In this document: positions 2,623-61,527 of the stretch, one piece after another
Layout: each line of letters opens with the position of its first letter
How positions within the stretch are numbered: position 1 is the stretch's first letter
DNA from: Lumbricus rubellus
Lineage: Eukaryota; Annelida; Clitellata; Crassiclitellata; Lumbricidae
DNA: 64,000 nt
Reading direction: 5' to 3'
Assembly (NCBI GenBank): GCA_945859605.1
Contig: OX243827.1
Span: forward strand, 29,707,141 to 29,771,140
Notes under the pieces: model-generated
Seen by the model: the letters and a program-made list of their open reading frames with translations, nothing else
What the model was told of the DNA's origin: nothing
Databases searched by the model: none
Translations under genes and position numbers: made by a program

Positions 2623-3914
2623 GTATGAATGGAAGAAGAATGGCGTCACGTTAGGCCAAACTGTTCGGAATATCCAGAGAAGTGTCGTGGATGGAACACT
2701 AACAATCCGACCTGCTACATTGGTAGACGAAGGCTTCTACCAGTGTTTTGCCATGAATCAATACGGCACAGCTCTCTCAAACATCGTACATGTGCAGAGA
2801 GCATTTCTTGGCTCCACTACTGTAACAAGAAATTCCACGGACATTCTTAATATAACCGTTCAAGAGGGAAAGCCATTTCACATTCAGGCTGAGCCTCGCC
2901 AAAGTTTTCCAAAGGGCATCTGTAGTTGGGAGACCACGAATAACACCGCGGATATAAATCCTATCCCACTTCGACCATCAAGAAGGATACAGATCGCAGA
3001 GAATGGTAAGATCGAATTAAATACGTAGCCAATAAAAGGCCTATTCTATGCTGCCAGTGATAAATTTAATTGTTAAACATGTGATAGAGTCTGTTTTTCT
3101 AACAATAGGGCCTACAGCGTTTAGACCGATTTCCCTGGCTGTTCTTTGAAAGTTCATTTGATGTTTATATTTATGTTGCTCTCTTTTCTGCTTAGGAGAT
3201 CTTTACTTCTCGTACGCAGTTCCAATGGATGACGTTGTTGGGAGATTTTACAGATGCTCAACTTACAATCCCTACCTGGATGTCAAAGCGGCAGGAAGCT
3301 ACACTCAACTGATTGTCATTAGAAGTGAGTGATTATACACGAAACAGTCAAATCAATATAATTATCATACGCAGGATAATTAGTTTAAACTCGTCCATTA
3401 TCGATTTAAAAAAAATAAAAAATACAAAGTACATGTAGGCCTATTACTGTCTTGTGCATAACGGTTGAAATGAAGGCAATAATTGAGCGCAATTAGTGGA
3501 AGAACGTAGGCCTAGTTAGTCTTATAATTGTCATAGAGATTTGTTTAATTCGTGTCTCGTTTTAATATTATAATGTAGTCGAAAAACTATCCTTGTTATC
3601 TTGTAAGCAGACATAATTATCTCTCTGTAGTGGTGCAATAAGTGCTGTATTCGAGATTAACGTATTGAGGTTTATTGAGTTTTTTCATAGCTTTATCTTC
3701 TTTCAGATTCATCATCTATTCGTCCGTTTTCTCCCACTCTACTATTTTCATCCGATTCACAAACCGTTGCACTTATTGGAGAAAGTGTAACACTAAGATG
3801 CTTCTTCTCTGGATAGTAAGTCTGTGATACTCTGATTAATCAGTAGGCTACAACGTATAGTTCTTTTAGGACGGCTATCCAATGGACTCTTTTCTTCCGA
3901 GCAGTTTTTTACAG

Positions 3915-3983
<69 letters not shown>

Positions 3984-5921
3984 GTAAAAATAATAGGATA
4001 AACTCTTATAGGTCTATGCATACAAAATTTAAGAACGATTATTTAGTAAGAACGATGATTGAATTAATAAAAGTATTGATGAAATTCTTGTCATAGTGAT
4101 ACAGCAGAAGATTAGATCCTTTAGTTTAGGATTACAATCATGATATATTAACCAATGCACAGCATACAACGCATGGTCGGAATTCTTTAGTTTAAGACCG
4201 CTGCTAATTATTTTTGTTGTGCGTCTAAAATCTACCATGCTTAATTGCTTATAGTGCACCATCCAAATTTTTCGCAATTTTATTTTTTTGTTTATTCAGT
4301 CCGGAGCCAACAATAACCTGGTCAGGGCCAAAGAACACTCTTCCAATTGGAAGATACACGCTGAATAATTTTAATTCGGAACTTGTCATCAATAACGTAA
4401 CGGCTACTGACCAGGGAGACTACACCTGCACTGGTTCAAATACCCAAGCACGTACCACACATACTCTTCAGATACGTGTGGAAGGTATGTATCATCTGAT
4501 GGTAAGCGTGATTTTAAAATAATTATGCATGAATGGAAGGGTGTTATGATATCAACAGACTTAAGTCTGGTTTGTAGGAGGAACGTCAATTTACTACGAC
4601 CGATTGCAGACATATCAGATGCCACTATAATACTTCAGATTCCTCTGAGTGGGGGTTTGTGCTTTCCAGTAATTCTTCTAGGCCTAAACGACCTGCCATT
4701 ATTCTAGTTCTTCACTTAGAATGTTCCCTTGTCTGGTTGAGGTTTCCACAGGTGTCTTTGTTGTATGTTTCAGCTGTTCCAGCTTTTATCAAAGCAAGAG
4801 GCGGCCCATATGATGTCAATGTGACTGAGGGGAATTCGGTTAAGTTCAGCTGCAATCCTAGCGCCAAACCAGAGGCGAAGATCGTTTGGTTTCAAGATGG
4901 AAAAGAATTGAATCGTACGTGATTTTTCAAAACAAAGTCTGTGTGTATGCATCTGTTAAACATAATATTATTATGCGACTTCACAGAAACTTGAGAATAA
5001 TTTCCGATGCGGTCTCTAATGATGACGTTCTCATTTTCATTAGCCTAAATGAAAATGTGTATACAATCATAATGACCTACCAATCCATTTATATATGCGG
5101 CAAATTCGTGGATCTACTATTTTGGCTAGGCTTCTCTATTAATAATTTGTTGGCCAAGCTTCTCTAATAATATTTTTATGGAAGAGAGAATGCATTGCGT
5201 TCGTATGAGCGTTCTTTTAGACGCTTTATAAGCTTATTTCAAATATTCACGTCTACAACTGTTACTGTTAAGCTTGTGTTTGATTGATCATTATTGTCTA
5301 ATATTATTTATTGATTATATTGTAAGCTTACAATCCTCCAAAGAGATTTACGTTCAGCAGCGACAACAAAAGTCTGACAATCATAGACGTTTGTCGAGAC
5401 TGCGTCGACCGAGAGAGTAAAACGGATCTGATGGTTATTCAATGTAACGCAAGCAACATTCATGAATACGCATTTGCTCAAGGATACCTGAACGTTCTCA
5501 GTAAGTTTATTGATAAGATGATGCTATGTTGCAAAGCCCGATGTTAACAGATGCGATGCGAAGTCGAGACTGAAGTTGAGTTAAATCACTTATCCAAACT
5601 CTTTAAAGCCGAAGTTTGAAACTCGTTTAGGCAATGTTTTATAGGGACAATAATTATTTTAACGAATAATTATTACCCGAAGCACTGTAGTGTCGGATAG
5701 AGTTGCTGCATTTAGTGAAAACTTATGTAGAATACTAGCTATTGTTGTTCGTTGATTTGACATTCTGGAAATAAATTATTATTAAATGGCACGAAATATA
5801 AATTTTATCATCAACGATTACTAATGGCGACATTATTGGTGATGGTAGTCATCGCTGTGATGATTTGATGACGATGCTATTGACGATGACGATGTTGATA
5901 ATGAAACTGATGGTGATGAGG

Positions 5922-5953
<32 letters not shown>

Positions 5954-8900: not shown

Positions 8901-10449
8901 AATGTTAAACATCAAACAATAATTTTATACATAAAATTCTAATAGGCGAAAACTTAAATTAGAGCATTTTTAAATATTTCTGATAACTTCATATTAAAGC
9001 AGCTAATTTGTGTATTTTCCACGATAATTCAAGTGCAAATTGAAGTAGCTAAATCTAATTGCAGACAAATTTTATACTTATATTTCGACTTTTCACATGA
9101 AAATGCACCATTTTATCCCTAAGACCTTTTAAAATATTGACCTTCAAAAAATTGACACACCCTAATGCTGATGATGTTGATGATGCCGAGGGTAATGCTG
9201 ATGTCGTCGTTGATAATAAAGACGTTGCTGATGATTTTCGTCTATAGGCAAGACAAGAGTCACAATAATCGAAGGCGAAAGAGATGTAGTAGTCTCAGGA
9301 AATGATGAAAAGAAAATCCAGTTTACGTGCAGAGCAACCTCAGATCCAAGCACTCCTCCCAGCGTACGATGGTACAAAGTGGTAAACAATAAGGAAGAAC
9401 AAGTCAACGATAATCCACCATATGTCGTTTTAAAGAATGCAACACTAATCATCAATTTCAACCAGAATAATACTCGACACTGGTCGCTGTATCTCGGAAA
9501 TTACAGATGCGTCGGTGATAATGGATACAGCAGAGATATGGTGAATGTGAATATTGTGGAACCTGAAAATTTTACACCAGGTGAGAAAATACTATATAAA
9601 GGAGGTAAGAACTTGCGTGTCAGAAGATATAAGCTTATTCTGCGTCTTGCATGGGGGAAAAAAGAAGAAGAATGAGAAGAGGAAGAGGAATAGGAAGAGG
9701 AAAAGGAAGAGGAAGAAAAGAAGGAGGACGAGGAGGACGGGGAGCCGAGGAAAATGCTGATGAAGAAGATGATGACGAAGAAAAAGATGAAAAAGAAGAA
9801 GAGGAGGGTTAGGACCAGGAGGAAGAGGAGGAAGAGAAAGAGGAGAAGATAAAGAGAAAGTAGAAGGAGAAGGTGAATCAGAACAAGAACATGAAAAACG
9901 AGAAGAGGAGGTAGAAGAAGAAGTGCAGGTCCTTAGGCTAGTGTTAGCTATTTGACTTTTGGTAGTCTCATAATAAGCCGGTTAGGACAGACCAGTGGAG
10001 AGAGTCGGGGGAGAGCATGGGACACATACGGGCATTGACCCACGTTGTCCTTCATGCCTCTTTCTCACGATTCTCTTCAATCAGACAAGGTGGTCTAGCT
10101 GCTCCAAGATGTTTATGGTATGGAGCAGCCCTGCTGACCGGACCAGTTGAAGCTGGGCAGCATGACGCGAGACAGACTCATACAGAGGGTGGCCTCGGAC
10201 TCTTACGGGCATTGAGCCCTATGATATTGATGATGAGTCTCATAATATGTACGAGCGAGTGGCCAGTACTCTTCCTTTCCGTCGCACCTTCACTACAATT
10301 GAATACGTTCAGTATACCTTGAATAGCTGATTTTATTTAGGGCCTATCTAGTTGGAACAGATAATTATCTGGAGCGAAATTCTGACCTTGTCAGATTTGA
10401 ACCCATTAAACAATATAATAGGCCTACAATTAAGTGTCCTGTATTGTGT

Positions 10450-10481
<32 letters not shown>

Positions 10482-11457
10482 TTTTATTGAAACCTTTGCC
10501 AAAACAACAACAGGATATCACAGCAAAAGCATTATCGCAAAAAAACAAATTGGCACATAGGAGACAAGGAACCCCAAAAGGGATAATAATCCCGCTAAGG
10601 AGAAATGCGTTTGACGGGTTTGGCAGCGCTGGAATGATTAGACATGATAATGCTTTGTTTCAACTACAGTTGTACCGGTCAAACCGAAAAGTTGGTGGTG
10701 GATCTACGTCGTACTCGGTGTTTCTTGTGGCGTCGCTCTACTTCTCGTTATTGTCACAGGAGTCATATGTAAGCATTTAGTTTGACAAATAAAAAATAAT
10801 TAATTAAGGAAAATATTATGCTCCTTTTTTTCCCTCTTCAGCAATAATTGCATCGTAGTCGTTATCTCCAAACTTCTAAAGCGCCACTTGAAAGCCATGC
10901 GCATTGCGCATGCAATTCGGGCTTTAATAAATTTCTTCCCACTAAAGCACTGATGATCTTAAAGTAAAACCGAGAAATCTGCAGTTATAAGTCTCCATTA
11001 AAAATACCCTTGTTCTCGTCATCATCAAGAACCGAGGGACCAGTGCCCGTAGGTGCCCGCTGCCATCCTCATTATTCATCGCCATTTTTGTCTTTCCATT
11101 GCCGCATGTGCCAGGTCTTGTATTGGCGCTCCGCACCAGTCGGTTATGTTCGTATTGTGCACTTCTCAAGTTGTTTCTAAGAAATTTCACTGTGACCATT
11201 GTGTTTTGCACTTCTTACAAAACGTCTGCTAACCCCTAAGCAACGACTGGATTGTCTAAGAAAATTTAATGATGTTGATGGTAATGTTTTCAGGTGTACG
11301 ACGAGGGAGCGGAGGAACACGTTCTGGCCGCAGGGGAGCGCACGAGATGGGAGCCAGGCGGTGTGACTACGTGCGAACGAGTGACATCGGACCATTCAGA
11401 AGAAACTATCCAACGGATGAAACGACTTTAACCTCTAGTCTAAGATCAGAAAACTAG
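2623..11457 (+). CDS. Gene A: L1CAM-type Ig receptor, short tail (5' partial)
   Basis: Exons joined by GT-AG splice sites with matching phase: 2623-3005, 3196-3324, 3707-3815, 4300-4484, 4774-4914, 5327-5500, 9248-9580, 10670-10768, 11294-11457. They encode the rest of Ig1 (YEWKKNG; FYQCFAMNQYGTA), Ig2 (ending GDLYFSYAV and RCSTYNPYL), Ig3 ([15 protein letters not shown]), Ig4 ([16 protein letters not shown]), a membrane-proximal Ig (FTCRATSDPS; YRCVGDNGY), one membrane span and a 54-residue tail. The pattern matches Ig1-4 of L1CAM/neurofascin/neuroglian, and the last Ig resembles L1-family Ig6. The signal peptide and first half of Ig1 are not found between 1 and 2622 and probably lie upstream of the window. 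All listed exons are open. Intron 5501-9247 holds a complete transposon. The tail has YVRT and YPTD tyrosines but no YxxL pair, unlike B, C and D. Adhesion or recognition receptor at the plasma membrane is inferred from the domains only. Confidence 0.82.
3915..3983. repeat. (AAT)n microsatellite
   Basis: About 69 bp of near-perfect AAT/TAA repeat in a gene A intron. Confidence 0.95.
5841..6063. repeat. (GAT)n microsatellite
   Basis: GATGAT repeats with GGT variants, next to the left end of the intact transposon. The transposon's target duplication ATGCTGAT lies at its edge. Confidence 0.9.
6084..9164 (-). mobile_element. Complete DNA transposon, 8-bp target duplication
   Basis: Terminal inverted repeats TAGGGTGTGTCAATTT (left) and AAATTGACACACCCTA (right) bound about 3.08 kb. 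The octamer ATGCTGAT flanks both sides. The element lies in gene A intron 6 of those visible and encodes one long minus-strand ORF. TAGGG ends with an 8-bp duplication are typical of hAT-type elements, but P-like or KDZ-like families are not excluded. Confidence 0.85.
6330..8765 (-). CDS. Putative transposase, 811 aa
   Basis: Single uninterrupted ORF. Residues about 140-165 hold a Cys/His-rich stretch (CKCDIKSC...CSSPC...HIFCDC), a possible DNA-binding zinc region. Residues about 200-260 are a charged coiled-coil segment (KKRRMERDKQSRQEEK). A likely RNase-H-like core follows: IFFDGRRDET, GGDSCNVNTGWEGG and VCDLHTGELPLRHL supply candidate acidic residues; a later SRWLTTALR block and a C-terminal HTQSVERCVK block complete it. 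I recall similar proteins as uncharacterised transposon products in cnidarians and arthropods, but cannot name the family. Lack of stops and the exact target duplication suggest recent activity. Confidence 0.75.
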   Translation of the reverse strand: MSNMKTRLLAWTHLHHLVGSGRQLPTAELPTVRDVIRYGLYLREMSDQDRRNYSNDQLVTELMTGVLAQWCKANPKFTEPVINGHTRIRAKLKSIWEQGNKVSSGRAKLEEKDRFMEKLDRLMDILTCKCDIKSCTDVGCSSPCVGGVHIFCDCSKEKKIPVIELAFIKGQREKVGSIGPHQIGPVDLPETRKQLLQQERQAKRLDDEKKRRMERDKQSRQEEKMTERSMHELQQREFDECEDMMDESEMDNCSDEYNPYLPDEGEASGGLMKIGKRARYNTTDITNIALASLRHHTGLRETAEIATAAWIDAGLVTHFDTTLVIDHNKVKRAQEKVMKELDAKFEDEIQQKGISCIFFDGRRDETKVMLQAEENGKMYPGLVKEEHITVCMEPESRYLWHFVPAKATKQKSHAGIIADNLVEWLKERGADKTLQAIGGDSCNVNTGWEGGVMHYVEEKLQRKLVWIVCDLHTGELPLRHLITALDGKTLSNNKWSGPLGKMLDSATDLEINPDFTKVSVGPGLPQLSDEVVKDLSTDQSYGYRIATAIRTGHLPKDLALLEIGPVSHSRWLTTALRFMRIWISKHNLQGKNLNNLRMIVEFCVGVYIVNWFNIKINSNWTQGPSHLVFQLQLIKEQKDEVKTIVMPTVKRSAWYSFSECVLQAMLCSDKEGERRDAAEKIMKIRGEGDETTQLGDNRVRPRRTPNINTEATTISQLIDWSSGVSEPPLTCTLTTAEIKALVDNPMVVPNWPSHTQSVERCVKMTTEAASHVYSHERRTHYIRGQMISRELMGRNRSKQDMMSLVDFAQFR
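9655..9925. repeat. Purine-rich GAA/GAG tract
   Basis: About 270 bp of almost pure A/G on the plus strand in a gene A intron, starting shortly after the 9580 exon end. Could form triplex DNA. Confidence 0.85.
10451..10482. repeat. (ATCA)n microsatellite
   Basis: Eight ATCA units in a gene A intron; may be the tail of an old retroelement. Confidence 0.85.
10670..10768 (+). CDS. Gene A transmembrane exon
   Basis: Exon between acceptor ..ctacag and donor gtaagc; 2 nt + 32 codons + 1 nt. It encodes a short basic lead (VPVKPK), three tryptophans and about 22 hydrophobic residues (IYVVLGVSCGVALLLVIV). The span has no charged residue. There is no Ser/Thr-rich stalk like that of gene B. The phase fits the exons on both sides. 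Confidence 0.75.
11294..11457 (+). CDS. Gene A cytoplasmic tail exon
   Basis: Acceptor ttttcag at 11287-11293; the exon reads to a TAG stop at 11455-11457. The tail is rich in Arg and Gly and carries CDYVRTSDI and NYPTDETTL tyrosine contexts. It shows no similarity to the tails of B, C or D. Confidence 0.7.
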
Positions 11458-11694
11458 TAGACTATTCAATTTGATTATGATGTGCAATGATAAACACGCG
11501 CTGAACCCAAGCTACTCCAAGCTACTCCTCCCTTACTCCAATGTCAGAAAGATTTCGATGTTGCCTGTTTTATGACAGTTTTCTTCAACTGTTTGCTACT
11601 AGTAGGCTATGCTCAACGCTAACACTAAGCTTAATGTTTCGGTTTTATCATAAACATTAACATGTTTATCGGTTGCTAATCGTAACTGTAATGA

Positions 11695-11790: not shown

Positions 11791-11802
11791 TAATTACAGC
11801 GC

Positions 11803-12940: not shown

Positions 12941-12944
12941 TGTT

Positions 12945-16185: not shown

Positions 16186-16300
16186 TATTTCAAACACATG
16201 ATATTTGCTGAGGTGTCTTTTCAACACCTCTTTTAACGTGATCAATCCAATATGAATAAAAGATTATTCAAAAACAACGCAAATTGCAGATACGTGGTTT

Positions 16301-18795: not shown

Positions 18796-18868
18796 ATGGA
18801 ACCTTGGGATCAACGTATCGTGCTTTTAATCGTTTACTTCCTTGGTTCAGGACGGGGAAATGAAAACA
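18796..18868 (+). CDS. Gene B signal peptide exon
   Basis: ATG at 18796; 24 codons + 1 nt, donor gtgagt at 18869. Hydrophobic core IVLLIVYFLG after a polar start. The next exon adds two nucleotides to complete an Ile codon, then RKPPSITKHPS of Ig1. The same exon, near-identical, opens gene C. Confidence 0.82.
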
Positions 18869-21800
18869 GTGAGTCTCTCTCATACAATAGATTTTTTTAA
18901 AGCAGGTGAACTTCAGTGGCATCAATTATACTTATAGTCCAATTTAACTGCCTTGTTAAATTAATGTGAATAGTTAATTTTACGCTCTAGATCATAGCTC
19001 GAGGGTACGCGTACCCTAAAATAGAATACGTTAAAATACGTACGTACCTTTCAAAAAATAGAATACGCGTATGGTACGTACGGTACCATACACGAAAATT
19101 TTATTCATGGTTTACTCGGCGACCCATAGTCTACATGCAGCCTACGTATAATCTGACGTCAGCTGTAGGCCTAATGGCCTATGCGTCATTGAGACCGGTA
19201 CTTCCAGTAGCGTAGCAGTAAATTTAATTCGATAAATTCTTCGGTCATAATTAATTTAATGCAAATTGCACTGTCTTTCTGACGAGAGCTAAGTATAGGC
19301 CTACGTCACTGGTTTACAAATTGCGTAATTCGAAAGTTGCAGTAGGCCTACGTCTATATAACCTACGCATCAGTCAGCCATTCAGCGATGCCCAGAGAAC
19401 ATGGGAAGGAATGGACGCACATGAAAGTTTTGAAAAATGCGAAAAACAATTATTTGATTGAATGCAATTTTTTCGACAAACAGTTCTGGTTTGGATAAGG
19501 CAATCGTATAAGAACACACCTTTGAAGTGCTGCAGCAGAACTGAGCCGACTGACTGACATTAGTGCATTAAGTGCAATGTATGCTGGATAAACATAGACC
19601 TACAATTCATTCATTCATTCATTCATTCATTCATTCATTCATTCAGAGCATTTATATAGCGCCCCTTCAAGAAACTACTCAGAGGCGCTCCCAGCCCAAC
19701 CACGAACAAAGAAAAAAGACTTGAGGGACTTGTAGAACGCAGCCGGATGGACCACAAGTAGTGAACGAAGTGAGAGCGGGAGGTCGTTCCAGACAGTAGG
19801 CCCCACGACCGAGAAAGCACGGCGCTGCTTAATAGCCAAGCGAGCCCGCGGGACCAGAAGCTCACCTTTAGACGAAGAGTGAAGTACACGACGCGCTGCA
19901 ACGTCAGAGACTGGACAGCACAGATCACGTAAGTATGACGGAGCACAGCGAAGAACACAGCGAGAGACTACAGCAGCAATGCGGTATGAGATCCGCTGAG
20001 ACACCGGCAGCCAGTGCAGCACATCACGCATATAGGCAGAGACAGGCGCAAATTTAGGAAGCCGCCCAATAAGGCGAGCAGCTGAGCGCAAGACGCGATC
20101 AAGTCGCCCCAGAACTCCTTATAGCATTGCAGCAATTTACTACGCCCTATACTGGGTTGGGATTGTTTGCTTAAATTAAATTGCACATTCCTATAATAAG
20201 CAATGACGATGTTAAAGTATTTTATTTAATGGTACGTACCCTAAAATAGGGTACGTTAAAATACGTACGTACCTTTCAAAAAATAGAATACGTATGGTAC
20301 GTACCCTCGAGCTTTGCTCTAGATCACTGAGAAAGGTATGCGTTCTATGATATCTAAGCTTAATTTAGACTAATTATTTAAATCAACGCCATTCAATGGA
20401 CTGCACAATCAATTTCAATCCGCGGGAATTTAAACAGCGAGTCTTTAACATACAATTGGGGTCTACTTCGTCAGTGTGCAAAAAAACTGTGTGGCTCCTT
20501 GAAGGCTTTACAGAAGTTATCAATCGCAGAGTTTGAACGGTGTTGTGGTCCCAGCTAGAGGTCCAATAGCCGGACGTTTTTTAATCCTAAACGTATAAGC
20601 TGCTGAATAGGTAATTAACTTAGGTCTATGAAGCTGGCTGATGCGCGGATACATCTTCTTCTGCATGCTTTCAGTTCGAAAGCCTCCAGCCATCACCAAA
20701 CATCCAAGTGCGAATGTCATCTATCGAAGTGATACTGCAGTTACACTGGAATGCAAAGCTGAAGGAATACCAGCTGTGTCGTAAGTCCACCTTCGATTTC
20801 ACTTTGAACAAGTATTTCTGTCTGTATCTCTGTCTCCGTTAATCCCATAATTAACTATTTACATAATTATTCAAACGCAGCTACAATGAGTATTAACTGT
20901 CTATGGGAAAAATTAGATCGCGTGAAACATGACGCACTACGTGCCCTCACATGCTGATGATACGAACATGAATTTTGTTCAGTAACATGTCATTTCAATC
21001 AAGGGTTAGGCCTATTCAAATTTGGACATAATCAGGTCTATCCTCCAAAGGTCGCTTAGAGTCAAAGCGGACAGCGCTTGCTTTGCGAGAATCCGAGACC
21101 AGGTCCGAGCGGAGTAATTGCGTAGGACTACAATTTTCATTTATGTAGTGTATTTGCGCAGTTTATTATTATAAAACACATAGCTATAATAGGCAGCACT
21201 GTAGGCTTATATTACGAAGACTGTCCTCGTGATTTTCCAGATACGAATGGAAAAAGAATGGTTTCGATTTGAACCCAAATCAACCAAACATTGAAAAAGG
21301 TGTGGATGGTTCAATAACAATAAACAATGCCGCAGCATCGGACGAAGGCTACTACCAATGTTTTGCTAGGAATCAGTATGGCACGGCTCTCTCAAATACG
21401 GCACACATTCAGAGAGCGCTGCTGGACTTCGCACCGGCAACTTCCACACCTCTTCAGAAAACCGTTGTAGAAGGCATGCCATTCCATATTCAGGCATATC
21501 CACGTAGAAGCTTTCCAAAGCCTACATATGGCTGGGAGATGGCGATTGACGCTGTGGACAAGAATCCAGTTTCAATATCGCCTACGAGACGGATACAAGT
21601 CGCTGAGAACGGTAAGACCTATGGCTAAACTTTTTTGAAAATTTCTTCGTACTCAGTGTTCCGAATTTAACCTGGTCACAGAAGCCAGCGAGTTTCTGGT
21701 TTTCTTCCTAACTTCTTTAGCCTATGGTTTATCTGACGTCTTTATCCATTAATATCAGTTTTCTAAGGATACTCGAGAGAAAGTGCTAGGCTAGGCTATC

Positions 21801-34113: not shown

Positions 34114-34186
34114 ATGGAACCTTGGGATCAGCGCATGGTGCTTCTTATCATTTACTTCTTTGCTTCAATTTGCGGCGAAGGAAACA
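34114..34186 (+). CDS. Gene C signal peptide exon
   Basis: ATG at 34114 in the same context as gene B (..tattagaATGGAACC). Hydrophobic core MVLLIIYFFASI, donor gtgagt at 34187, 73 nt as in gene B. Open. Confidence 0.78.
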
Positions 34187-40631: not shown

Positions 40632-40844
40632 CACTAGATGCAATCATCACAAAAGACACAAATTCAGTTTCAGTCGCAAACGAAACACAAGCTACAACTG
40701 CATCACCATTTCGGACGCAAAGTGGCTTGATTCAAGATTACTGGATTTTGATCGTCATAGCCACAGCAGGTCTTGTTTTACTACTTCTGGTTTTCGCAGT
40801 CTGTAGAACCATCATCTTGTGCAAACGAAAGGCTCGACAGAACG
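40632..40844 (+). CDS. Gene C transmembrane exon (shortened stalk)
   Basis: Uses an acceptor attcag just upstream, giving the same phase as gene B but about 14 fewer stalk residues. Membrane span WILIVIATAGLVLLLLVFAV, then CKRKARQN and donor gtgagc. Exon itself is open. Confidence 0.68.
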
Positions 40845-41726: not shown

Positions 41727-42157
41727 ATGCAACAAGCAACGCACAGAACGAAGAAGGTTTCCCAACGGACTCCATTGAACCAGACTACGAGATTATTATA
41801 ATAGACGACGATTGCATGAAACCAACTCAAACTAAGCAGCCATCTCTATCGTCCGGTCGAGTTTCTAAAAGCACACAGCGTGATGTTGATCTTACTTCTA
41901 GGTCTGATGTGCATCCTGCAGTCGGAGGTCTTGCCAGTTTAGGCCTAGCAGCTGTGAAAAGTGCCATTTGCCACACTGCACGCAACGAAAGCACTGTGAC
42001 GGGAAAACGTGGTCAGGAATTGAAGGAAATTGCTGAAGTCAGTGAATCATCTGGATTGACATCCGAGTACATGGAACTGATGGAGAGAGGACAGGCGAAT
42101 CCAGCCATCTACGCCGAACTGGAACATATTAAGGAAGAACTCAGCCCTGTTCGCTAG
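41727..42157 (+). CDS. Gene C cytoplasmic tail exon with ITAM-like motif
   Basis: Acceptor ttctag at 41721-41726; stop TAG 42155-42157. Homologous to the gene B tail throughout (EPDYEI, ARNESTVTGKRG, EELSPVR). YMEL at 42068 and YAEL at 42110 are 14 residues apart; SEYMEL also fits the ITIM consensus. It stops before the RYTNF end seen in gene B. Confidence 0.75.
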
Positions 42158-42929: not shown

Positions 42930-43357
42930 CTAGGACAACTGCAGCTCTACGTAAGTCGAAGCTGTAGCCTGGTCTCTGTCGGTCAGCGCCATGTAGTCGC
43001 ATCCTGATTGTTGTCCAATTGGAGCAATCCCTGATTGTCCACAATAGCATTTCGTTCCAGTGCTCTCCGTTTGTGTAGCCGCATCTACAGTTACTGTAGT
43101 TGAGCGACTATCTCCACTTCCCACGCCACCAAGGATGGATGATTGAATCATTGGTTGCTGATCTTGTAACAAACTTGAATTCCCAACACCACATTCGACA
43201 GCTGACGTATAAAGGAGGTCATTATGCACAGAAGTTGTTTGTGTATTCGGAGCCGATTCCAAATTAACGTACTGATCATCAGCAATTGTATCGTACAGAG
43301 CATAAGACAACTCGGTACCGGGTGCCTCATGTCTTCCTTTGGTCTCTCTCACGGTAT
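42930..43357 (-). CDS. Gene D cytoplasmic tail with ITAM-like motif
   Basis: Acceptor gattatag just above 43357; stop at 42930-42932. The 141-residue tail is rich in Ser, Thr and Gln. A membrane-proximal tyrosine cluster reads [16 protein letters not shown] (YVN is also a Grb2-type motif). A C-terminal pair, YMAL and YVEL, at 42995-42942 has the same YxxL-x10-YxxL spacing as B and C although the rest of the tail does not align. Confidence 0.78.
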
Positions 43358-45392: not shown

Positions 45393-48300
45393 ACATACAC
45401 ACATAGATGCATGCATGTGAATAATAGTTAATTATATTATAAATTAAGCGATCCCAAAATTAGCTCCAGTGTCTAACGAAATCTCATGGGTACACCAGGG
45501 CAGTAGCCATCCTCCTCCTTCCGTTTCCAAGCTTGGGACTGGCACTGCTTGTCACTATTGGTGCAACTGATAGTGACGTATAATAGCCAACACCTTTGAT
45601 TTGATTTGATGCGAATAAGCGTCGATGAAATACAATATGATAAGTTTAGTCATTGAAGACCTAAACCACTTAAATAAAAACACAAACTTGATTCTTCAGC
45701 GGACAATATGGACTGTAACAGCGTCAATGTGACTGCTGGTCACCGATAAAAGTATGGTACATAATTATGTGTTACATTAGTTTCTTCCTCGTTTTTTTTC
45801 AACATTTGATTTGTCATACGTACTGCTGTGTTTAGCTCCTTTATGGCACGTTTGTCCGAAAAATGCATAGAAGATGCCAGCCAGTACAAGAAGAATACAC
45901 GTGACTCCAACGATGACCCAAATCCACGCGTACCCGTATCCTACGTTGAATAAACATTCTAGACATCATAAACATTTACGCAAGAAAAAAGTCTCGCCAA
46001 ATTGTACCAAAGTGACCAAAGTCGTGATTACGTCCATCATAATTTGAAATAGCCTAAAGAATCATATCGACCAATTATAAATTATCAGAATATTTTCTGT
46101 CTGAAGCACTCGGCTGTTTGCATTTGGTGATATTTACAGACTATTTTACTACTTAACCGGAACTTTACTGGTTCTATGTAGCTGTTTATTACCTGGTACC
46201 ACTGGTGGTTCGTATTTTTCAACAATGAGGTTCACCGAGGCTGTAGCCTTGCTGTAGCCATTGTCTCCGGTGCACCTATATTCTCCGTGATATTTTGTCC
46301 ACTTCTGAGTACCATTCGGACTGACAGTGATGGTCAGAGCACCGTCCTTTAGAGTGACGGTTGGTGGATCGTTTTGGACTGGTTGTTCCTCACCGTTTTC
46401 CACTTTGTACCACCGGACAGTTGGATGAGTGCTTGGATCTGAAGTTGCACTGCATTCAAACTTGACTTCCTTTTCTTCATACATCTCAACATGGACATCT
46501 TGGTCGTTGACAAGAATCACCTTTGTCTTGGCTAAAAGGCATGACAAATATTACCATGTACAACAGGAGCCTAAATATCTTTAGAAACAGCAATAAGTCC
46601 CACTGCATAACATCATCTAAGCTTAATGATTGAACTCTGTGCTGGAGTTGACCAAGCCTAGAAGCATCTTAGAGCCTTACTGAAGTCTGTAAGTATTTAA
46701 TGTAAACATAATTATTCATTGTTTTCTCATGAGAAAACTAGCAGACTCAACAATCAAAAGTTATCTTGATTTTGCTATGTCAAAGGTTTTCTGTTGTCAT
46801 CTCTTAAACTTCAAGTGATGATCACTACTCACACAGCACATTTACGTATCCCGAAGAAAATGCGTATCCGTGAATGTTGCTTGCATTGCATTGAATAACC
46901 GTCAGATCCGTTTGTTTCTCTCGGTCACCGCAGTTTCGACAAACTTCTTTGATCGTCAGACTTTTCCTGTTGCCGGTGAATGCAAATCGCCTGGGAGGAT
47001 AGTTTACTAAAAAGAAGCACAAGTTCCACTTCAGGATAAAACTACAAGGAAGTTATTGTTTAACTCTGCCAAGGGGAACCTACACAGATACGTGAGTCCA
47101 CTCTGGCTCTGCATTAAAAAACCGTTTACGACTTTCCTTTTTACTGGGCTTGGGGTGGGATCACGTCCTGAATGGTGCTACATAAGTTTGATAGATAGAT
47201 AGATAGATTATATACTGCATAATTCATTACAAGAAATATTAGTACCATTTAGATTAGGCCTATAGGCCTAATAAAAATTGGCGAAATATTTACCCAGTAA
47301 TTAAATAGTCAAAGGAGTCCGCCTAACTAATAATAATAATAATAACAGTCGAAATAATAATAATATAGAAAAACCTTTTTGAAATAAATAAATAAATAAT
47401 AATATTAAATATGACAATTAATATTGCGTCGTTATACGGCCACCGTTACATGGGCGCCTAACAAAACTGAAATAAACTTAATTATTTTGTACAGGATTCC
47501 ATTGAAATTCACAAAATAATAAGACATTTCATGAGCTTCATCTGAAGTGACAAGGGATTGCCTACATTTATAAGTATATGTATATTATCGAAATAAAATA
47601 ATTAGGTAAATATGACATGAATATCTGCCCGAAAGCTGACCTCAAACTTTAACAATTCAAATGCCTAAACAGAAGCATAGATCTCCTAAACTGTGGTCAT
47701 ATAATGACCTATAAGTTTTCAACTTGTTTAAAGAGAATTTACACGTAGGCCTATTATTTTTTAAAGGTTTTCATGTCCCGATTATTTTGCTTGAAAAGAT
47801 TATGGTAGCTTACGATCTAATACTATTCCATCTTGAAGCCAGACAATCGTAGCATCTGGATTGGAATTGACGATGCAGTTGAATGTAAGCGACTCTCCTT
47901 CAGTCACGTTGGCATCATAAGGACCATCCTTTACCGTGGCAAATACAGGTATCGCTGAAAACACATCTTACTATAAATTAGTTGAACGTCAATTAAAACC
48001 AGATACATAGTATAAAAGTGCTACACGATTTGTATGGTTTGTTACACATAATAGAACAACCGTTATAATGAAATGATAAAACATTATTTTATTTATTTAG
48101 CTTTTGCAGAACGCGTCCAGCCACTGAACAGCAGCCTCATCAGCCACATGTAATGCGGTTAAACCACCCGGAAAGCGAGTTGTTTTGCAGTCATCTACGA
48201 TGTGTGACATTGTCTGGATTTCACCACAGCTACACAGTGGGTCCGAAGCCTGTCTCCATTGAACCATGTTCACAGCATCCTTGCCCAATGCCCAGTTCTA

Positions 48301-51037
48301 AAACGATTTAACGTTGACCAATGCCCACGTGGCAGATCATGGCCAGAGGGCCAGACAGATGGCACGACCACGAGATAATGGTTCACAACATCAGCTGCAA
48401 ACAATTCAGCACACCAGGCCGCAATTATAGCTGTCATGTCTTCCGCCGGTGGATTTAGACATATGGGTCGTCTCGAAGGAAGGCGAACATTCGGGTGAAA
48501 CACAATGTCCGTATGATAAAACATTGAAGTAATAATATAACGTGTAAATACTTGTATGTATTGATGTGTCACTAAAAACTGTACAAAAACTTCGTGAAAA
48601 ATCCTCCCTAGTCAGGGCTCAGAGTGCAGACTATTATGGTTGTGCAAAATATAGAGCATATCCAGTTTCATGGATGGGAATGAGAAGTTTATGACCCGAC
48701 AATAGGCTACCACGGGAAGCAGAGCTTCGTATTCTTTGGCAAACAACTCTTCAATGTTAGAGAGTCCTTGGGTAGAGGTACATGTAGGTAAACATCACAC
48801 GCGTGTTAGTTTTTTAATCTAGGATTTAAAAAAATCAAATTCATTGACACCATCCCCTTCCTAAGTACCGGTACGTAATATATGGATAGCCTCTTATTTG
48901 TGTCTATAGGCCTACATGTACATGTATGTGGTTGGCTGGAAGAGCTCTGAATAGACTTTTTCAAGAACGATACATATCATTGAAACAAATGAAACGAGCT
49001 CACTGTTCAAGCAACCTGACTTGATAGTTGAATTTGTATGCTGAACTGGTAAATCATATACAATAAATAGCTAAACTATTAAAATCAGACAGTTTCCAAT
49101 CACTTTGCTGTGGACCCTAATTCGTTGTATTTATTGACAAAGACAAACCTTCAACTCGTATCTGAAGAACATGCGTGGCACGTCCTTGGGTATTTGAACC
49201 AGTGCAGGTGTAGTCTCCCTGGTCACCAGCCGTTATGTTATTGATGACGAGCTCTGAATTGAAATTATTCAGGGCATATCTGCCAATTGGAAGAGTATTC
49301 TTTGGCCCTGTCCACTGTATTGTTGGCTCCGGACTGAACAAAGATCAAAAAACCATATAAAAGAACACGTCCAGCATATATCTTATCAACTTATTTACAG
49401 TCAGATAGAATTTTATGTAATCTGTCAAGCACAACTGAACTGTTAAGAGCACGGGCCGCCACTCACTGCACTTCCATGGCAACTTAATGGTCCCTTTCAC
49501 TTTCTCTGCAGCAATGCAGAGCCGTTCTTTCTCTGTGGTTGGTCGAACAACCTGGAAGGAATGGGCCTTCATTGACTGCAGCACCTCCCAAACTGTTCTC
49601 AGGTCTACCAACTGTTGAAGGCTGCCTTTTTATGGAGTAGGTATCTTGAAAAGAAGTGCTATATAAATTATGATCGATTGTGATGTTGCTATGAAGTCGA
49701 TGATCGTGTAAATCAGCTTTAACATATTTAGGCCTACTCAGTTTTTATAATTCAAGAATTATTCTGCATAAATTCAACCTACATTGCTACTCCATTCAGA
49801 AAGTAAATTCTAATAATAATTGAATTTACTTTCTGAATGGAGTAGCAATGTAGGTTGAATTTATGCAGAATAATTCTAATTGGAGGAGTATTCAGATATT
49901 ATCTGAGACAAACTGAATTGATAAGAGCCATTGTTCAAAGAAAAGTTGAAAAGCAATATATATTGCCCCGTTATTTATTCAGAATAACAGGAGAACTTGA
50001 GAGTAAGTTTAACCAAACAGTAAGCTATAGAGCCATGTTAAAGGTCACTTTAGGTAATGTAATTCAGGTAATCTTACTATCCAGAGAAGAAGCATCGGAG
50101 TGTTGCACTTCCTCCAATGACAGCAACAGTCTGCTCTAGAGAAGCAAATCCTAATGTTGGATTAAATGGAGCAAGGCCTCCTGGATCTGTAACGGCATAA
50201 ATAACATCAAAAACATTAAGAGAAAAAGTAATCAAAGAGTATCATACATGTAGCTTTGTAGTACTGTAATACCTGTAAATAACTAGAGAACGATTTTCTC
50301 TAACCCTCTTAAAACTCAGTTCATAGTGATGTTATGGTCACCAAAACATTCTTACTTCTTGTCACAGTTATTTGTCTATAACTTCCTCCCGCTTTGATAT
50401 CTAGGTAAGGATTGTACGTTATGCATTTGTAAAGCTTTCCATCAAGAGAATCCTCAGGCAGAGCATAAGCAAAGTACAGGTCACCTGAAAATAAAACAAA
50501 GACAATAATATAGATGTCTTCTGTTGTTGGGATCAATTTCTCAATATTACCGTACATTGGATTTTTCTACATATCTAAAGGTGGACGAACTATCAAATTA
50601 ACAGTAATGGGCAGGCTACATCCTTTTTATTCGCAAAATTCTGGATGCGGCAAATGAACTAAAAGGAATGGTGTCGAGTGAGACACTACAGCCAATCTCG
50701 AAGTGGTTCCACGTGTCTTCAACTACTGCACGCAGGTTCGGGAATCAATAATAATTTAGCAGAATATCTCCTGATCAGTCTACGAACCCACACTGAGCAT
50801 CTTGAGTTCGCATCTGCTCGGATATATCGGAACACTGAGTTAATTTCATTGACAAAAAATGTGCATGGTAATTGTGCGGTGTGGACGTTATTTTCAGCTA
50901 TCATCGTTCTTCATCTACCAAATAATGTATGTATGTACATGTATGTATGTATGTATGTATGTATGTATGTATGTATGTATGTATGTATGTATGTATGTAT
51001 GTATGTATGTATGTATGTATGTATGTATGTATGTATG

Positions 51038-51071
<34 letters not shown>

Positions 51072-56398: not shown

Positions 56399-56431
<33 letters not shown>

Positions 56432-59400
56432 ATGTATGTATGTATGTATGTATGTATGTATGTATGTACGTGTATACAATGTATGTGTGTATGTGTGTAT
56501 GTATGTGCACTTATTACCTGCAACCCTCCGGCTGCAAGGCGACGAACATACCCACTACTGGAACACCACCGCGCCTCACAGTGCAGTACTTGGCCCTACA
56601 CATAATATTATTGTCATTTTTTTGAAGAAAATGTTAAATGGGTTGCACGCACGTCGCCCAGGTTCTATATTAAATTTGATCACTGTTTGCTATTATAGGC
56701 CTACGATAAATTTATTCTTCTAAATGAAACCTAACAGGATCTAGAGTGTGATGTAGGCTATTTTCTGCAATGCGGGCGTTAAAACATTATTAGGCTTTTA
56801 TTGTAATTTGACATTTCTAAAGGGCCCCTGCTAGTTAAAAGCTCATAGGTGGCGTTTCGCACCCAAGCCAGTGATAACCTGTTACAGTAATACAGACTTT
56901 AGTCGATTGTGTGAAGCTATAATCTACACAAACTGAGGACGTCATCCGCATCTTTCAACAATGGCAAATAAATCTGGACTGAGATGTATGCATCTGAGGA
57001 ACGGACCAATTATTCATGGGAATCTGAGAATAGTGATACACAAAGGCACACCGTTAAGTGTTCTATAACTAATCTTTTTCTTTTAATGTTTCTTTTATTT
57101 CTAAATTAATTGAGAAGATTGTTGCTTCTCAACTAACTGCATATCTTGATGTGAAAAATTTACTTCCGATTTTTCAATCTGGGTTTCGTAAGGGTCACTC
57201 CACGGAAACCCTCTTAGTTCGCCTCCTTTCTGATATCTATGGGGCAATCGATAGATCCCAGGTCACACTTTTAGCATTATTTGATGTCAGTGCGGCTTTC
57301 GACACTGTCGATCATAATATCCTCCTCAAGCGCCTATCAACCTCGTTCGGTCTTTCTGGGAACTTCCTCGACTGGCTTGGTTCCTTCCTCCACGACCGTT
57401 CCTTCTCTGTGGTCTACGGGTCTGCCAGAACTCCATGGGTTCCTGCCCCATTTGGCCTGCCCCAGGGTTCTGTCCTGGGCCCACTTTTGTATATTATTTA
57501 TACAGCTGATCTTGGTTCTCTCCTTGCTGCTTCTTCTGTCCTTAGCCAATCCTACGCGGATGACCTGCAAGCATATCTGCACTGTTCTGCGCCGGCAGCC
57601 ATTTCCACTGTTCGAGTCATGAGCCGGGCAATGGAGGCTCTGGAAGCCTGGATGTCATCCAATCGCCTGCGGCTCAACTCTTCTAAAACCCAATTTATCT
57701 GGCTTGGCACACGCCAACAGCTCGCCAAAATTGACCTGGATGCTATTGCCCGGGAATTCCCTCAGTTTACTTTCTCTTCCTCTGTCCGGGACCTTGGTGT
57801 CACTTTGGACCAAGAGCTTACTTTCACGCGGCATATCAACTTGCTATGCCGCAGCTGCTACTACCAATTGCGTCAGCTTAGAGTGGTGCTTCGCTCCTTA
57901 ACCTTCAACGCTGCCTTAACGCTTATCCACTCTTTCGTTGTCTCACGTTTAGACTATTGCAGCGCCCTCTATGTGGGTCTTCCGGTGACTCGGGTTGGGT
58001 GCTTGGACAGGGTCTTGCGCTCTGCGGCACGCCTTGTCGGTCGCATCCCAAAATTCGGCCATGTCACTGACTATATGCGGGATGTCTTGCACTGGCTCCC
58101 TTTCTCACAAAGGGTCACTTACCGAATATCTTCCTTGGTTTGGCGCTGTCTTTCGGGTGTGGCCCCTGTCTATTTTCAGGAGCTCTGTTGCTCCACCCTG
58201 AGAGTCCAGCGCCGCGGCTCTCTCCGCTCTTCTAAGCAGGCTGAGCTTTTTGACCCCGGTCGCGCACTTCTATTGTGCAGCGCCGTGCCTTTTCTGTTGT
58301 TGGCCCTGCAACCTGGAATGGGCTCCCTGTGGAACTACGTCTAATGCCTCGAGCCTTTGAGACTACGTTCTACTCTGCTCTTAAGACTGTTCTCTTTAGC
58401 CGTGGTTGGGTCGGGAGCGCTTCTGAGTAGATTTTCTTGAAGAGGCGCTATATAAATGCCTGAAATGAATGAATGAATGAATCTATATGCATTTGACAAT
58501 TTGACTCGATGGTAAAACACTAATGGAAATTGGAAAATTGAGGACTTGAAAGGTAAAGATACACAGATAAAGCTATCATTGTGCATAGATTACAGTTAGA
58601 TTTCTATTACCGTTCTCGGCAATCTGTATCCTTCTCGAAGGTCGTAATGGAACTGTATTTTTGTCCACGGTGTTAGAAGCCATCTCCCAGCCATATGTTG
58701 GCTTTGGGAAACTTTTACGTGGATCTGATTGAATATGAAAAGGGAGACCTTCTACAACGGTTTTCGGAAGAGTTTGAGGAGTTCCCGATGCAGAATCCAG
58801 CACCGCTCTCTGGATATGTGCCGTATTTGAGAGAGCCGTACCATACTGATTCCTAGCAAAACACTGGTAGTAGCCTTCATCAGATGCTGCAGCATTGTTT
58901 ATTGTTATTGAACCATCCACACCTTTTTCAATGTTTGGTTGATTTGGGTTCAAATCGAAGGTATTCTTTTTCCATTCGTATCTGTAAATAACATGTATAA
59001 AAATTTATTAATAACTTTCTAAAAACAGTGTGTCTTAGGCCTGTTTGAAAATTCAGTAGGCTACTCTCTTTTTACAATCTAAGGTAGGTTCACTGTTAGA
59101 GATGATTGTGAAATGCGCTTTATACAGATTTAGGCTATTATTTATTAATACAAACTGTAGCCTGTGTTTATAAGTAAAAGAACAATTTTAATTAGTAATA
59201 GTAGGCCTATCATCTTTTTCTCATTGTTTTCATTATTATTATTACTTAGTGTTAGGCCTATTATTGTCATTATTATCATTATGACTAATAACTTAACATA
59301 AAAACAATGTCTCGAAACCAGACTGGCTAAGACCAGGACGACCCTACCGGGAATCGCGTATGCCGTATGGCTATGACTGACAACCGTTCCGGATTCGCCT

Positions 59401-61527
59401 CGACTGTCGCAAAATTATTGGCTTTGTGCTTCCCGTGTTCCGGACTGATCACAAATCGTACTTTATCAACTGTTCTGTTTTCACACACTTAACTGAAAAA
59501 GTTGTGCCATGAACTTTGCATTTTGCTCACCCCGGAAACCGAGTTCACAATTCATGGATTTTTAACGTGCAGTTCTACACAAAATGTGCAGTTGTAAATG
59601 AATTTGCGCACTTGTAAAAACAATCTTGTGCAGTTCAACTGTTCTGTTTTCACACACTTAACTGAAAAAGTTGTGCCATGAACTTTGCATTTTGCTCACC
59701 CCGGAAACCGAGTTCACAATTCATGGATTTTTAACGTGCAGTTCTACACAAAATGTGCAGTTGTAAATGAATTTGCGCACTTGTAAAAACAATCTTGTGC
59801 AGTGACATTTATTAGAAAAAAACTACACAGTAGGCTCATCTAAAAAAATGCCGTCTGTCCGACATTTTGGCATTGACATCGGTTGTAGACGTGAGCAATG
59901 CATGGGGACAGAATGATCAGCGAAAATCTTTGTGGAGAAAATTCGTCACAACGACTTTATAATAAATAGCCTATAATACAAGTTGTATTATTGCTCTACA
60001 ACAACCAATGCTATTGCGATTACGTGTAGCCTACGTGGCTTTGAATTAGCACGAATTAGCACAAAAATGCAAAACTGCGTCGAGGTTAGACTAAACTCAC
60101 ACACAACTGCACAATTTTCCGATTTAATCTTGGGTAGGCAGGACGATGGCTTACTACCGTAATTATGATATAAGGCGACTTGAATAATTGTTAGACTGTT
60201 CAGATAATTTGAAATAGTCTACAGACTGAGGTCACTATATTCTTGGCGGGAAATTATGACAGATTATTATCTTCATTCATTTACACATTACAGATATTTG
60301 TATAGGCCTACCTGTCTCTTCTCAGAGTCGCTCCTGACTCAACCTCCGGCTAAAGAGCACGGTTTTAAGAGTAGAGTAGAACGTGATTTCAAGAGCTCTG
60401 GGCATTAGACGTAGTTTCACAGACAGCCAATTCCATATTTCAAGGCCAGCGACAGAAACTACACGGCGAAGTATTATAGTTCGCGACTTAGAAGAGAAGA
60501 GAGCCACTACACGGTGCTGGACGCTTAGAGTGGAGGAGCAAAGCTCCTGTAAATAGACAGGAGCCAAACCTGCGAAGAAGCGACAAATCAAGGAAGATAT
60601 CCAGAAAGTGATCCTCGGTGAAAAAAGAAGCCGATGCAATACATCCCGCAAATATTCAGTGTCATGGCCGAATCTTGGGGTGCGATCAATTAGGCGAGCG
60701 CTGCGCGATAAACCCGATACAAACACCCAATCCGATTCACCGGAAGACCCACATCTTAATCGATTTCTGCCCACAATGAAACAATATGAAAAAAAGACGT
60801 AAGCTTACCAATTATATAGACATGACAAAATATGTAGAATCTGCTTACCTTACATCTGGCACTCCCTTCCCTTTGCAGTCCAGTGAAACTCTGTCATCAC
60901 TTCGGAAGATGACGTGTTGCGGTAACGGACCTTTCGTAATCGATGGCGGCATTCGAACTGAAAAGACAAAGACAAATGTCGTAGAAATTTGCAAGCAGCA
61001 GGCAGGTAGTCACATGGCAAGGTACATAAATTATAGCCTACAATGCATAAGTAAGGATAGGCTGACATTATATTATTTGTTGTCCCGAGGTAGGCTACAT
61101 GTAATCCCTCAGTAGTCTAAAAAATTAGGGTTGTGGGTGTTGCTAAATGACTGGAACTTCAGACTTCGTCAGTAACTGTTATTATTGTTTTATGTTATGG
61201 GTGGCGACGTTGGACATGTGAACCAGCACGAGGACAGAGAACGAAATAATAATAACAATAAGCTTACTTATTATTTATGATTTTAAAATTAAAAATAATA
61301 ATTAATATTATTATTATTTTATTAGACCTCGCTGAGTTAGTTGGACATTCGTATTCGGGTATCTTCTAAGCTGTAGTGAAATTATGCTTATTGTTAGGAC
61401 TGCATATGAAGGACTTACTGTCTTCTTGGCCACAAGCCGGATCAAGGAAAGAAACAGCCATACATGCAATACACAGATTCCAGAGTTTTCGCATCTGCAG
61501 CTTTGGCAAATTCCTGACCTTCATCAT
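42930..61527 (-). CDS. Gene D: complete L1CAM-type Ig receptor with ITAM-like tail
   Basis: Eleven exons on the minus strand, 5' to 3': 61527-61419, 60957-60849, 58981-58611, 50484-50356, 50186-50078, 49333-49149, 47954-47814, 47006-46833, 46531-46193, 45940-45824, 43357-42930. They sum to 2211 nt, 736 codons plus stop, with the same phase series as gene B. Order: signal peptide ([18 protein letters not shown]), Ig1 ([29 protein letters not shown]), Ig2 ([32 protein letters not shown]), Ig3 ([15 protein letters not shown]), Ig4 ([25 protein letters not shown]), membrane-proximal Ig ([19 protein letters not shown]), membrane span, tail. No stop or frameshift seen. Ig1-Ig2 exon 3 is closest to gene B; Ig3 is closest to gene A. 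Signal exon and tail are unrelated in sequence to B and C. The 8.1-kb intron 3 holds split (ATGT)n arrays, two TIR elements and a CR1. Confidence 0.85.
43358..45823. other. Gene D intron 10
   Basis: No ORF of note. Contains a CA-rich repeat at 45225-45396 and TAGGCCTA words; otherwise nothing recognised. Confidence 0.55.
45225..45396. repeat. (CA)n-rich microsatellite
   Basis: ACATACAC units then (AC)n, densest at 45340-45390. Confidence 0.92.
45824..45940 (-). CDS. Gene D transmembrane exon
   Basis: Encodes [21 protein letters not shown] then [10 protein letters not shown], a typical single span with a basic cytosolic flank. Acceptor ..cgtag, donor gtacgt; phase fits both neighbours. Confidence 0.72.
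48097..48575 (-). mobile_element. Non-LTR retrotransposon C-terminal remnant
   Basis: Minus strand reads [13 protein letters not shown] then, in another frame, [19 protein letters not shown], a Cys/His motif typical of the end of jockey/I-type LINE ORFs. Frameshifted. In gene D intron 6. Confidence 0.6.
49755..49877. repeat. Perfect 56-bp inverted repeat
   Basis: Arms 49755-49810 and 49822-49877 are exact reverse complements with an 11-nt AT loop (TAATAATAATT). In gene D intron 5. Confidence 0.95.
50924..51122. repeat. (ATGT)n array, part 1
   Basis: Nearly perfect tetranucleotide repeat ending at the left TIR of the next element. Confidence 0.95.
51123..53355. mobile_element. TIR element inserted in the (ATGT)n array
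   Basis: Ends TAGGGTGCATCA and TGATGCACCCTA, with ATGTATGT on both sides (inside the repeat, so not proof of a target duplication). 2.2 kb, only short ORFs. The TAGGGTG end matches the intact transposon at 6084, suggesting a related family. Confidence 0.75.
53356..53553. repeat. (ATGT)n array, part 2
   Basis: Continuation of the same tetranucleotide repeat between two inserted elements, with some ATGC and TGTG variants near 53500-53526. Confidence 0.95.
54100..54430. repeat. Minisatellite with AGAAGCTGGATTGA units
   Basis: Degenerate units of about 60-75 bp sharing GAAATAGAAGCTGGATTGA and GAAGAAACGC. Similar words occur upstream of genes B and C. Confidence 0.7.
55015..55220 (-). mobile_element. 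LINE ORF2 end fragment
   Basis: Minus frame reads [30 protein letters not shown] and WRHWTHEPA with a stop, a common RTE-like ORF2 C-terminus. Nested in the TIR element. Confidence 0.65.
56146..56487. repeat. (ATGT)n array, part 3
   Basis: About 340 bp of ATGT repeats with a short (TG)n interruption at 56398-56415. Confidence 0.95.
56515..56605 (-). mobile_element. SINE 5' part (minus)
   Basis: Complement of GGTTGCAGG and the CAGCCGGAGGG region of the 62003 SINE, including TGTTCGTCGCCTTGCAG. Truncated by, or abutting, the ATGT array. Confidence 0.55.
57100..58486 (+). mobile_element. CR1-like LINE, 5' truncated
   Basis: ORF 57151-58344 encodes CR1-type reverse transcriptase: [50 protein letters not shown] (YADD), then [13 protein letters not shown] and [11 protein letters not shown] frameshift near 58290 moves the last 40 residues ([18 protein letters not shown]) to another frame. 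The 3' end is AGGCGCTATATAAAT followed by an (ATGA)n tail. It lies in gene D intron 3 in opposite orientation to the gene. Confidence 0.85.
59467..59804. repeat. Perfect 169-bp tandem duplication
   Basis: 59467-59635 and 59636-59804 appear identical on reading. Non-coding, in gene D intron 2. Confidence 0.88.
60310..60780 (-). mobile_element. CR1-like LINE 3' end
   Basis: Minus ORF 60774-60322 includes [32 protein letters not shown] and LKTVLFSRR, the CR1 C-terminus. In gene D intron 2. Confidence 0.75.
61419..61527 (-). CDS. Gene D signal peptide exon
   Basis: Found by looking upstream of the Ig1 exon for a hydrophobic leader with a phase-1 donor. ATG at 61527 (a second at 61524; Met12 also possible), hydrophobic stretch [12 protein letters not shown], donor gtaagt at 61418. 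The final nucleotide joins the next exon to give Ile, as in B and C. Confidence 0.62.

Follow-up and report, generated by a model that had tools for sequence, protein, structure and literature searches.

The window analysed here is a 64,000-nt stretch of the Lumbricus rubellus genome (OX243827.1:29707141-29771140; source genome of 787,420,884 bases in 368 contigs). Comparison of the window with itself revealed four diverged copies of one gene, A, B and C on the forward strand and D on the reverse. The plan common to the copies is a signal peptide, four immunoglobulin (Ig) domains (Ig1-Ig4), a fifth, Ig6-like domain, a membrane span and a tail. We consider it probable that the family is a derivative of the adhesion molecule L1 without fibronectin type III (FNIII) domains, which would have diversified through tandem duplication, exon-by-exon conversion and exchange of tails, giving receptors of an adhesion type and of a signalling type.

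Placed by homology, the exons follow one order: the first half of Ig1; the second half of Ig1 with the first half of Ig2; the second half of Ig2; two exons each for Ig3 and Ig4; one for the fifth Ig; the membrane span; and the tail. A signal-peptide exon was found for B, C and D, ahead of the exon for the first half of Ig1. The original prediction of an identical exon-phase plan holds in that exon lengths modulo 3 are equal across the copies, the sole exception being the frame-shifted Ig6 exon of C. AG and GT edges were imposed during placement, so the splice edges are not evidence, which consists of the shared phases and open frames only. Matching exons of the window copies have 44-91% DNA identity, and the Pfam scores of the Ig domains are about 1e-46 in B and about 1e-44 in D. 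The shared plan and the similarity of the copies are far beyond chance.

The join of B gives 781 amino acids, from Met to stop and without an internal stop. After a hydrophobic start exon for the signal peptide (18796..18868), also kept in C, come the first half of Ig1 (20675..20780), the Ig1-Ig2 exon (21241..21611), whose first 150 bases are 92-100% identical to D, and the second half of Ig2 (23020..23148). Ig3 is encoded at 23597..23705 and 24415..24599, and Ig4 at 24966..25106 and 26028..26201, the latter exon apparently homogenised with A and with K, a copy outside the window. The fifth Ig occupies a single exon (26728..27057), followed by the stalk and membrane span (28146..28400) and by a cytoplasmic tail with YVAL-x10-YAVL (29082..29554), found by motif scan in the open join. 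As in A and D, the exons between signal peptide and tail rest on homology placement and an open join.

D, on the reverse strand, likewise runs from Met to stop without interruption (725 amino acids). Its exons are a hydrophobic start for the signal peptide (61419..61494), Ig1 first half (60849..60957), Ig1-Ig2 (58611..58981), Ig2 second half (50356..50484), Ig3 (50078..50186 and 49149..49333), Ig4 (47814..47954 and 46833..47006), the fifth Ig (46193..46531), the membrane span (45824..45940) and a tail with YMAL-x10-YVEL (42930..43357; open join, motif scan). The introns of D hold repeats: one contains three (ATGT)n arrays of about 50, 50 and 90 units (50925-51122, 53356-53553 and 56146-56506), and that between the two Ig1 exons a perfect 169-base tandem duplication (59466-59803). 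Near the Ig1-Ig2 exon, on the opposite strand, lies a frame (57073-58344, forward) with a reverse-transcriptase match (PF00078).

Gene A starts left of the window, where its signal-peptide exon would lie and where its first Ig1 exon is placed about 1.7 kb outside (about -1687..-1589). The join comprises eight exons and 517 amino acids without a stop: Ig1-Ig2 (2623..3005), Ig2 second half (3196..3324), Ig3 (3707..3815 and 4300..4484, the latter 88% identical in DNA to D), Ig4 (4774..4914 and 5327..5500, the latter of low synonymous divergence to B), the fifth Ig (9248..9580) and the membrane span (10670..10768), all forward. No tail exon was found for A, either in the 8 kb after its span exon or in a profile scan of 304 kb. 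The intron before its Ig6 exon contains an 814-amino-acid open frame (6330-8774, reverse strand) that matches no Pfam family; 92 relatives were listed, some from Hydra, crustaceans (a crab) and fishes, and the frame is probably a mobile element of no assigned class.

C is a pseudogene, because it has an in-frame stop in Ig4, a broken Ig6 exon and 15 stops in the join. All parts were located by homology on the forward strand: a hydrophobic start exon for the signal peptide (34114..34186), Ig1 first half (34535..34640), Ig1-Ig2 (35123..35490), Ig2 second half (35980..36108), Ig3 (37470..37572 and 37901..38085), Ig4 (38729..38869, with the stop seen in the join, and 39267..39446), the fifth Ig, frame-shifted and stopped (39817..40153), the membrane span (40632..40844) and a tail exon in which a motif scan found YMEL-x10-YAEL (41727..42157).

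An L1-type ectodomain without FNIII

By sequence, the nearest solved structure to Ig1-Ig4 is neurofascin, and the four domains have the features of the L1-type horseshoe fold. Pfam profiles I-set and Ig_3 score far above V-set in B and D. Both have five Ig domains, against six in the definition of an L1CAM. The fifth matches Ig6 of a neuroglian (P0016) by tblastn, with no match to Ig5, and its assignment as Ig5 was rejected for that reason. No FNIII domain was detected in the B and D models at E<=0.1 with Pfam; the best value in the window was E 0.066, over 15 residues, and a crude FNIII profile gave a best E of 2.1 in the 304 kb. The idea that the exon model had missed FNIII was rejected on these results. 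A sushi domain was also sought in B and D, with no match at E<=0.1. There is good support for the products being type I surface proteins with L1-type horseshoes.

Compared with the L1CAM family (L1, neurofascin, NrCAM, CHL1, neuroglian), the copies share the sequence and horseshoe of Ig1-Ig4, an Ig6-like last Ig and a single span, and, in two members of the array (J and K) and 13 of 15 relatives described below, the ankyrin-type tail PF13882. They differ in having neither Ig5 nor FNIII, in the lack of an ankyrin-type tail in B and D, and in their tandem arrangement. L1 proteins have six Ig and four or five FNIII domains, according to PMC5045292.

A second horseshoe protein must be considered, since hemolin, the fourth sequence match among solved structures, is described in PMC12387071 as an insect immune protein with a horseshoe similar to that of L1. 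The array genes might accordingly encode secreted or soluble hemolin-like immune binders, the membrane forms being precursors. Hemolin, however, is a secreted four-Ig protein of Lepidoptera, whereas A, B, C and D have hydrophobic membrane-span exons and a fifth Ig, both absent from hemolin, and the array genes add signalling or ankyrin-type tails and a tandem arrangement; we regard a soluble binder as very improbable.

Relatives of the array genes

When proteins were searched with model B, 7,991 candidates were scored and 61 were listed, the first 15 of which (P0001-P0015; 592-685 amino acids, 30-66% identity) were taken as relatives. They most likely come from spliced RNA, because their long frames are unbroken over stretches where the window has many exons. 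None of the 15 carries an fn3 annotation and 13 have PF13882, the L1 intracellular region. The FIGQY motif is altered in the nearest of them: SFVGAY in P0001 and P0003, SFIGDT in P0002, SFHSVP in P0004 and SYLGLS in P0005. Loss of FNIII is hence not special to the array, all 15 relatives being without it. The result suggests that FNIII-less molecules of the L1 type form a clade; no account of L1CAMs that lack FNIII was found in the literature searched (open-licence papers only).

In a tree of 30 rows, A-D and the 15 relatives form one clade (19 rows, 100/99), which stands beside seven full-length L1CAMs (81/83); the union with the L1CAMs receives 100/100 against four Robo rows.

The tandem array and probable exchange between copies

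Exon profiles were run over 304 kb around the window, and matches were grouped into copies by order and strand. In window coordinates, they comprise a fragment (-84.7 kb); Z (-17.7 to -6.0 kb); A, which starts at -1.7 kb; B, C and D; E (78.6-69.8 kb, reverse); F (reverse, with its tail at 84.2 kb and its Ig6 at 88.2 kb); G (88.7-89.6 kb); H (111.3-115.1 kb); I (115.6-125.5 kb); J (137.0-150.4 kb); K (157.1-181.7 kb); and L, a start only (200.1 kb). Apart from these, an isolated Ig1/2 piece lies at 169.7 kb. The four neighbouring genes of the original prediction are indeed four copies in the window, one of them a pseudogene, and the search of the surrounding genome that it had proposed enlarged the array to 14 copies or fragments in 304 kb, nine of which (Z, A, B, C, D, E, I, J and K) contain Ig1-Ig4. 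In E, the Ig6 exon is interrupted by an insertion whose ends form short inverted repeats (69987-70474, seen by eye), and the gene is disrupted.

Nearest neighbours shift exon by exon across the copies. In the Ig1-Ig2 exon, B and D are 92-100% identical over the first 150 bases and 72-85% over the rest; synonymous divergence of this pair is 0.42 in the exon versus saturation in Ig6. There are 140 sites at which D matches one of B and P0001 but not the other, and eight consecutive ones among them favour B (permutation P 0.0001). Of 48 such three-way scans, 16 had P below 0.01. In the second Ig4 exon, synonymous differences are few between B and K (10/37 sites versus 202/288 elsewhere, P 5e-7) and between A and B (6/35 versus 208/304, P 5e-9); the same test for A and D in the second Ig3 exon gave P 5e-5. 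When Z, J and K are set aside, Ig6 is more divergent than any other domain (mean 44% identity). Gene conversion would explain this exon-specific divergence best.

Such an array might also be a neutral product of birth and death, in which most duplicates decay and take on no new role, the tail differences being left over from random exon capture. The broken C, the insertion in E and the fragmentary state of F, G, H and several pieces are what this would produce. It accords poorly with the frames of B and D, open over 11 exons, with retention of the motif in both tail types and with nonsynonymous divergence (dN) below synonymous divergence (dS) in most comparisons (for example, 0.10 versus 0.42 for B and D in the Ig1-Ig2 exon), and we consider it improbable. 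Diversification of an L1 derivative by duplication, conversion and tail exchange is the reading that we retain.

Two kinds of tail

The tails of J and K are of the L1 ankyrin type; they pass PF13882 with 45.0 and 33.3 bits (cut-off 23.8) and have SFVEKY and SFVGKY where FIGQY is expected. In both genes the intron between the two tail exons reads best as GC-AG. Neither B nor D has a PF13882 ankyrin-type tail. Their tails gave no Pfam match even at E up to 1, and comparison with the P0001 tail by local scores gave no trace of an L1 tail in either (z 1.8 and -0.7).

Each of the five tyrosine tails (B, C, D, E and F) has a pair of Y..L units, separated by x10 in B, C, D and F and by x8 in E; the motifs of the last two are YMVL-x8-YSVL (E) and YMTL-x10-YASL (F). 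Acidic residues around the first Y..L and the fixed spacing are kept in all five, while the remainder diverges, so that the motif region is the part common to these tails: overall similarity exceeds that of shuffles for C and D (z 5.5) and hardly so for B and D (z 2.2). The immunoreceptor tyrosine-based activation motif (ITAM) has a classical spacing of 6-8 residues and a loose definition of 6-12. Two Yxx(L/I) at 6-12 residues are present throughout; at 6-8, in E alone. Shuffled tails, 20,000 for each gene, give the motif at frequencies of 0.0074 (B), 0.0045 (C) and 0.017 (D). Chance as the source of the ITAM-like pattern was rejected: a looser pattern occurs 37 times in 447,053 amino acids of open frames, and five of the 37 are the tails. 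A peptide profile found no sixth such tail (best E of the reversed control 0.36), and, having been trained on the five peptides found, it shows the absence of a sixth only. The Y..L pair is seen in none of the 15 relatives. Judged from these motifs and their conservation, the tyrosine tails may signal like ITAMs.

These results bear on several parts of the original prediction. Its L1CAM/neurofascin-like Ig1-Ig4 agree with the nearest solved structure, and FNIII exons, which it had named as a possible refutation when joined in transcripts, were not found in the window or the 304 kb. A further Ig, a span and a signalling tail were predicted for every gene; the further Ig is Ig6-like and the tyrosine-motif tails are present in B, C and D, with no tail found for A. 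Replacement of the ankyrin tail by a putative signalling tail likewise applies to B, C and D, and not to J, K and the 13 relatives that keep the ankyrin-type tail.

The tails also enter into an alternative account. L1-family horseshoes mediate homophilic adhesion (PMC5045292), the whole clade is probably L1-derived, and the ankyrin-type tail persists in two array members and most relatives; the genes could thus be a diversified L1-type family for adhesion or neural wiring, in which Y..L would serve endocytosis and sorting and not immune-type signalling. Paired Y..L units at a fixed distance, in acidic surroundings in five of five tails, are more than one sorting signal needs, however, and B and D no longer have the ankyrin-type tail. 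We hold this account to be unlikely, though worth serious attention, and continue with the proposed division into receptors for adhesion and receptors for signalling.

The distribution of tail types is not that of the ectodomain tree. D and P0001 are 81% identical in the ectodomain and 26% in span and tail, so that the modules differ at the boundary between Ig6 and the span. Tail labels were mapped onto a tree of 25 rows (ten array copies, 12 of the 15 relatives and three L1CAMs; F and G not included), with P0004 and P0005, whose motif is degenerate, counted as ankyrin-type. The minimum number of changes was at least three for the tyrosine tail and five for the ankyrin tail, and as few were reached in 110 of 500 and 47 of 500 label shuffles, respectively; neither label is strikingly clustered.

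Discussion

Taken together, our results suggest how such a locus might have arisen and might work. The ancestor would be an L1CAM-type adhesion molecule after loss of Ig5 and all FNIII domains. The Ig1-4 horseshoe would bind to a horseshoe of the same or a related kind on an adjacent cell; ankyrin-type tails could anchor such contacts to the membrane skeleton, while ITAM-like tails, if phosphorylated by Src-type kinases, could recruit tandem-SH2 (Syk-type) proteins and turn contact into signal. Duplication, conversion and tail exchange would yield paired adhesive and activating receptors with shared recognition surfaces. The most likely role would be cell recognition (allorecognition or haemocyte recognition), and the main alternative would be neural wiring. 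More tentatively, and with considerable doubt, we envisage a recognition locus built from an L1CAM scaffold, in which a pool of horseshoe exons is shuffled by conversion and joined to an anchoring or an ITAM-like tail, to stick or to signal.

Several points weigh against the proposed origin and diversification. The fold alone does not say L1, as contactins fit the model as well as neurofascin. Phylogeny, which the original prediction had named as a possible refutation, puts the genes beside the L1CAMs in the main tree; when mouse contactin-2 and hemolin are added, the clade stays at 100/100 and the tree does not fix the order among L1, contactin and hemolin. Because of this, the family is better termed an L1 derivative than a member of the L1CAMs as usually defined. 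Mosaic exons make any single tree a rough tool, and the tyrosine-tail label, by the same shuffles, is neither clustered nor unusually scattered. J and K show no excess in the synonymous test (P 0.13), and low synonymous divergence of the second Ig4 exon could come from constraint on synonymous sites instead of conversion. The x10 spacing of B, C, D and F is wider than that of a classical ITAM, the sole x8 case being the disrupted E, and Y..L motifs are also endocytic signals. Finally, the assembly has gaps in the array (200 N at 88507-88706 and 5,000 N at 106207-111206), because of which F, G and H may be incomplete.

Receptors of similar design are known from other invertebrates. The oyster protein CgIgIT2 (Crassostrea gigas), by its domain description, combines five Ig domains, one span and an ITAM (PMC11999971). 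The fester co-receptors (FcoR) of Botryllus, as described in PMC12065747, are clustered type I receptors of similar size with gene-content variation and with immunoreceptor tyrosine-based inhibitory motifs (ITIM) or hemITAM, core Y-x-x-I/L/V. They differ in domain content, with a V-type Ig, a sushi domain and two C2-type Ig, whereas B and D have no sushi match. The Alr proteins of Hydractinia are also clustered Ig receptors, with ITAM/ITIM motifs mentioned in the same source; V-set- and I-set-like domains (PMC11999971) in place of an L1 horseshoe set them apart by description.

The original prediction, that an adhesion scaffold had been turned into a compact, duplicated receptor family, fits the FNIII-less horseshoe, the local duplication and the tyrosine tails of B, C and D; it needs correcting in that the FNIII loss is wider than the cluster and one gene is a pseudogene. 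A nervous-system adhesion molecule has apparently been recast as a multigene receptor family, with ankyrin-type tails of the ancestral kind and new tyrosine-motif tails in one array. If this is true, L1 adhesion molecules gave rise to paired membrane-bound receptors of immune type, and the origin of such receptors from adhesion molecules becomes testable in one locus.

Other features of the window and genome

A tRNA scan and an Rfam search found no genes and no matches, respectively, and an NCBIfam search with model B returned no families. Pattern matches to related loci in prokaryote and viral contigs numbered 6 and 14, none of them confirmed. At the left end of the window lies an inverted repeat (45-323 and 777-1055) with arms of 279 bases that are 96% complementary. 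Reverse-transcriptase matches (PF00078) occur at 16256-17449, within the frame or frames of 16256-18172 on the forward strand. Elsewhere in the genome, among the matches listed, dense I-set clusters lie at 46.18-46.37 Mb of C3, 24.6-24.75 Mb of C8, 12.57-12.61 Mb of C17, 2.77-2.79 Mb of C7 and 0.48-0.50 Mb of C1, and some of these matches fall in frames of over 2,000 amino acids.

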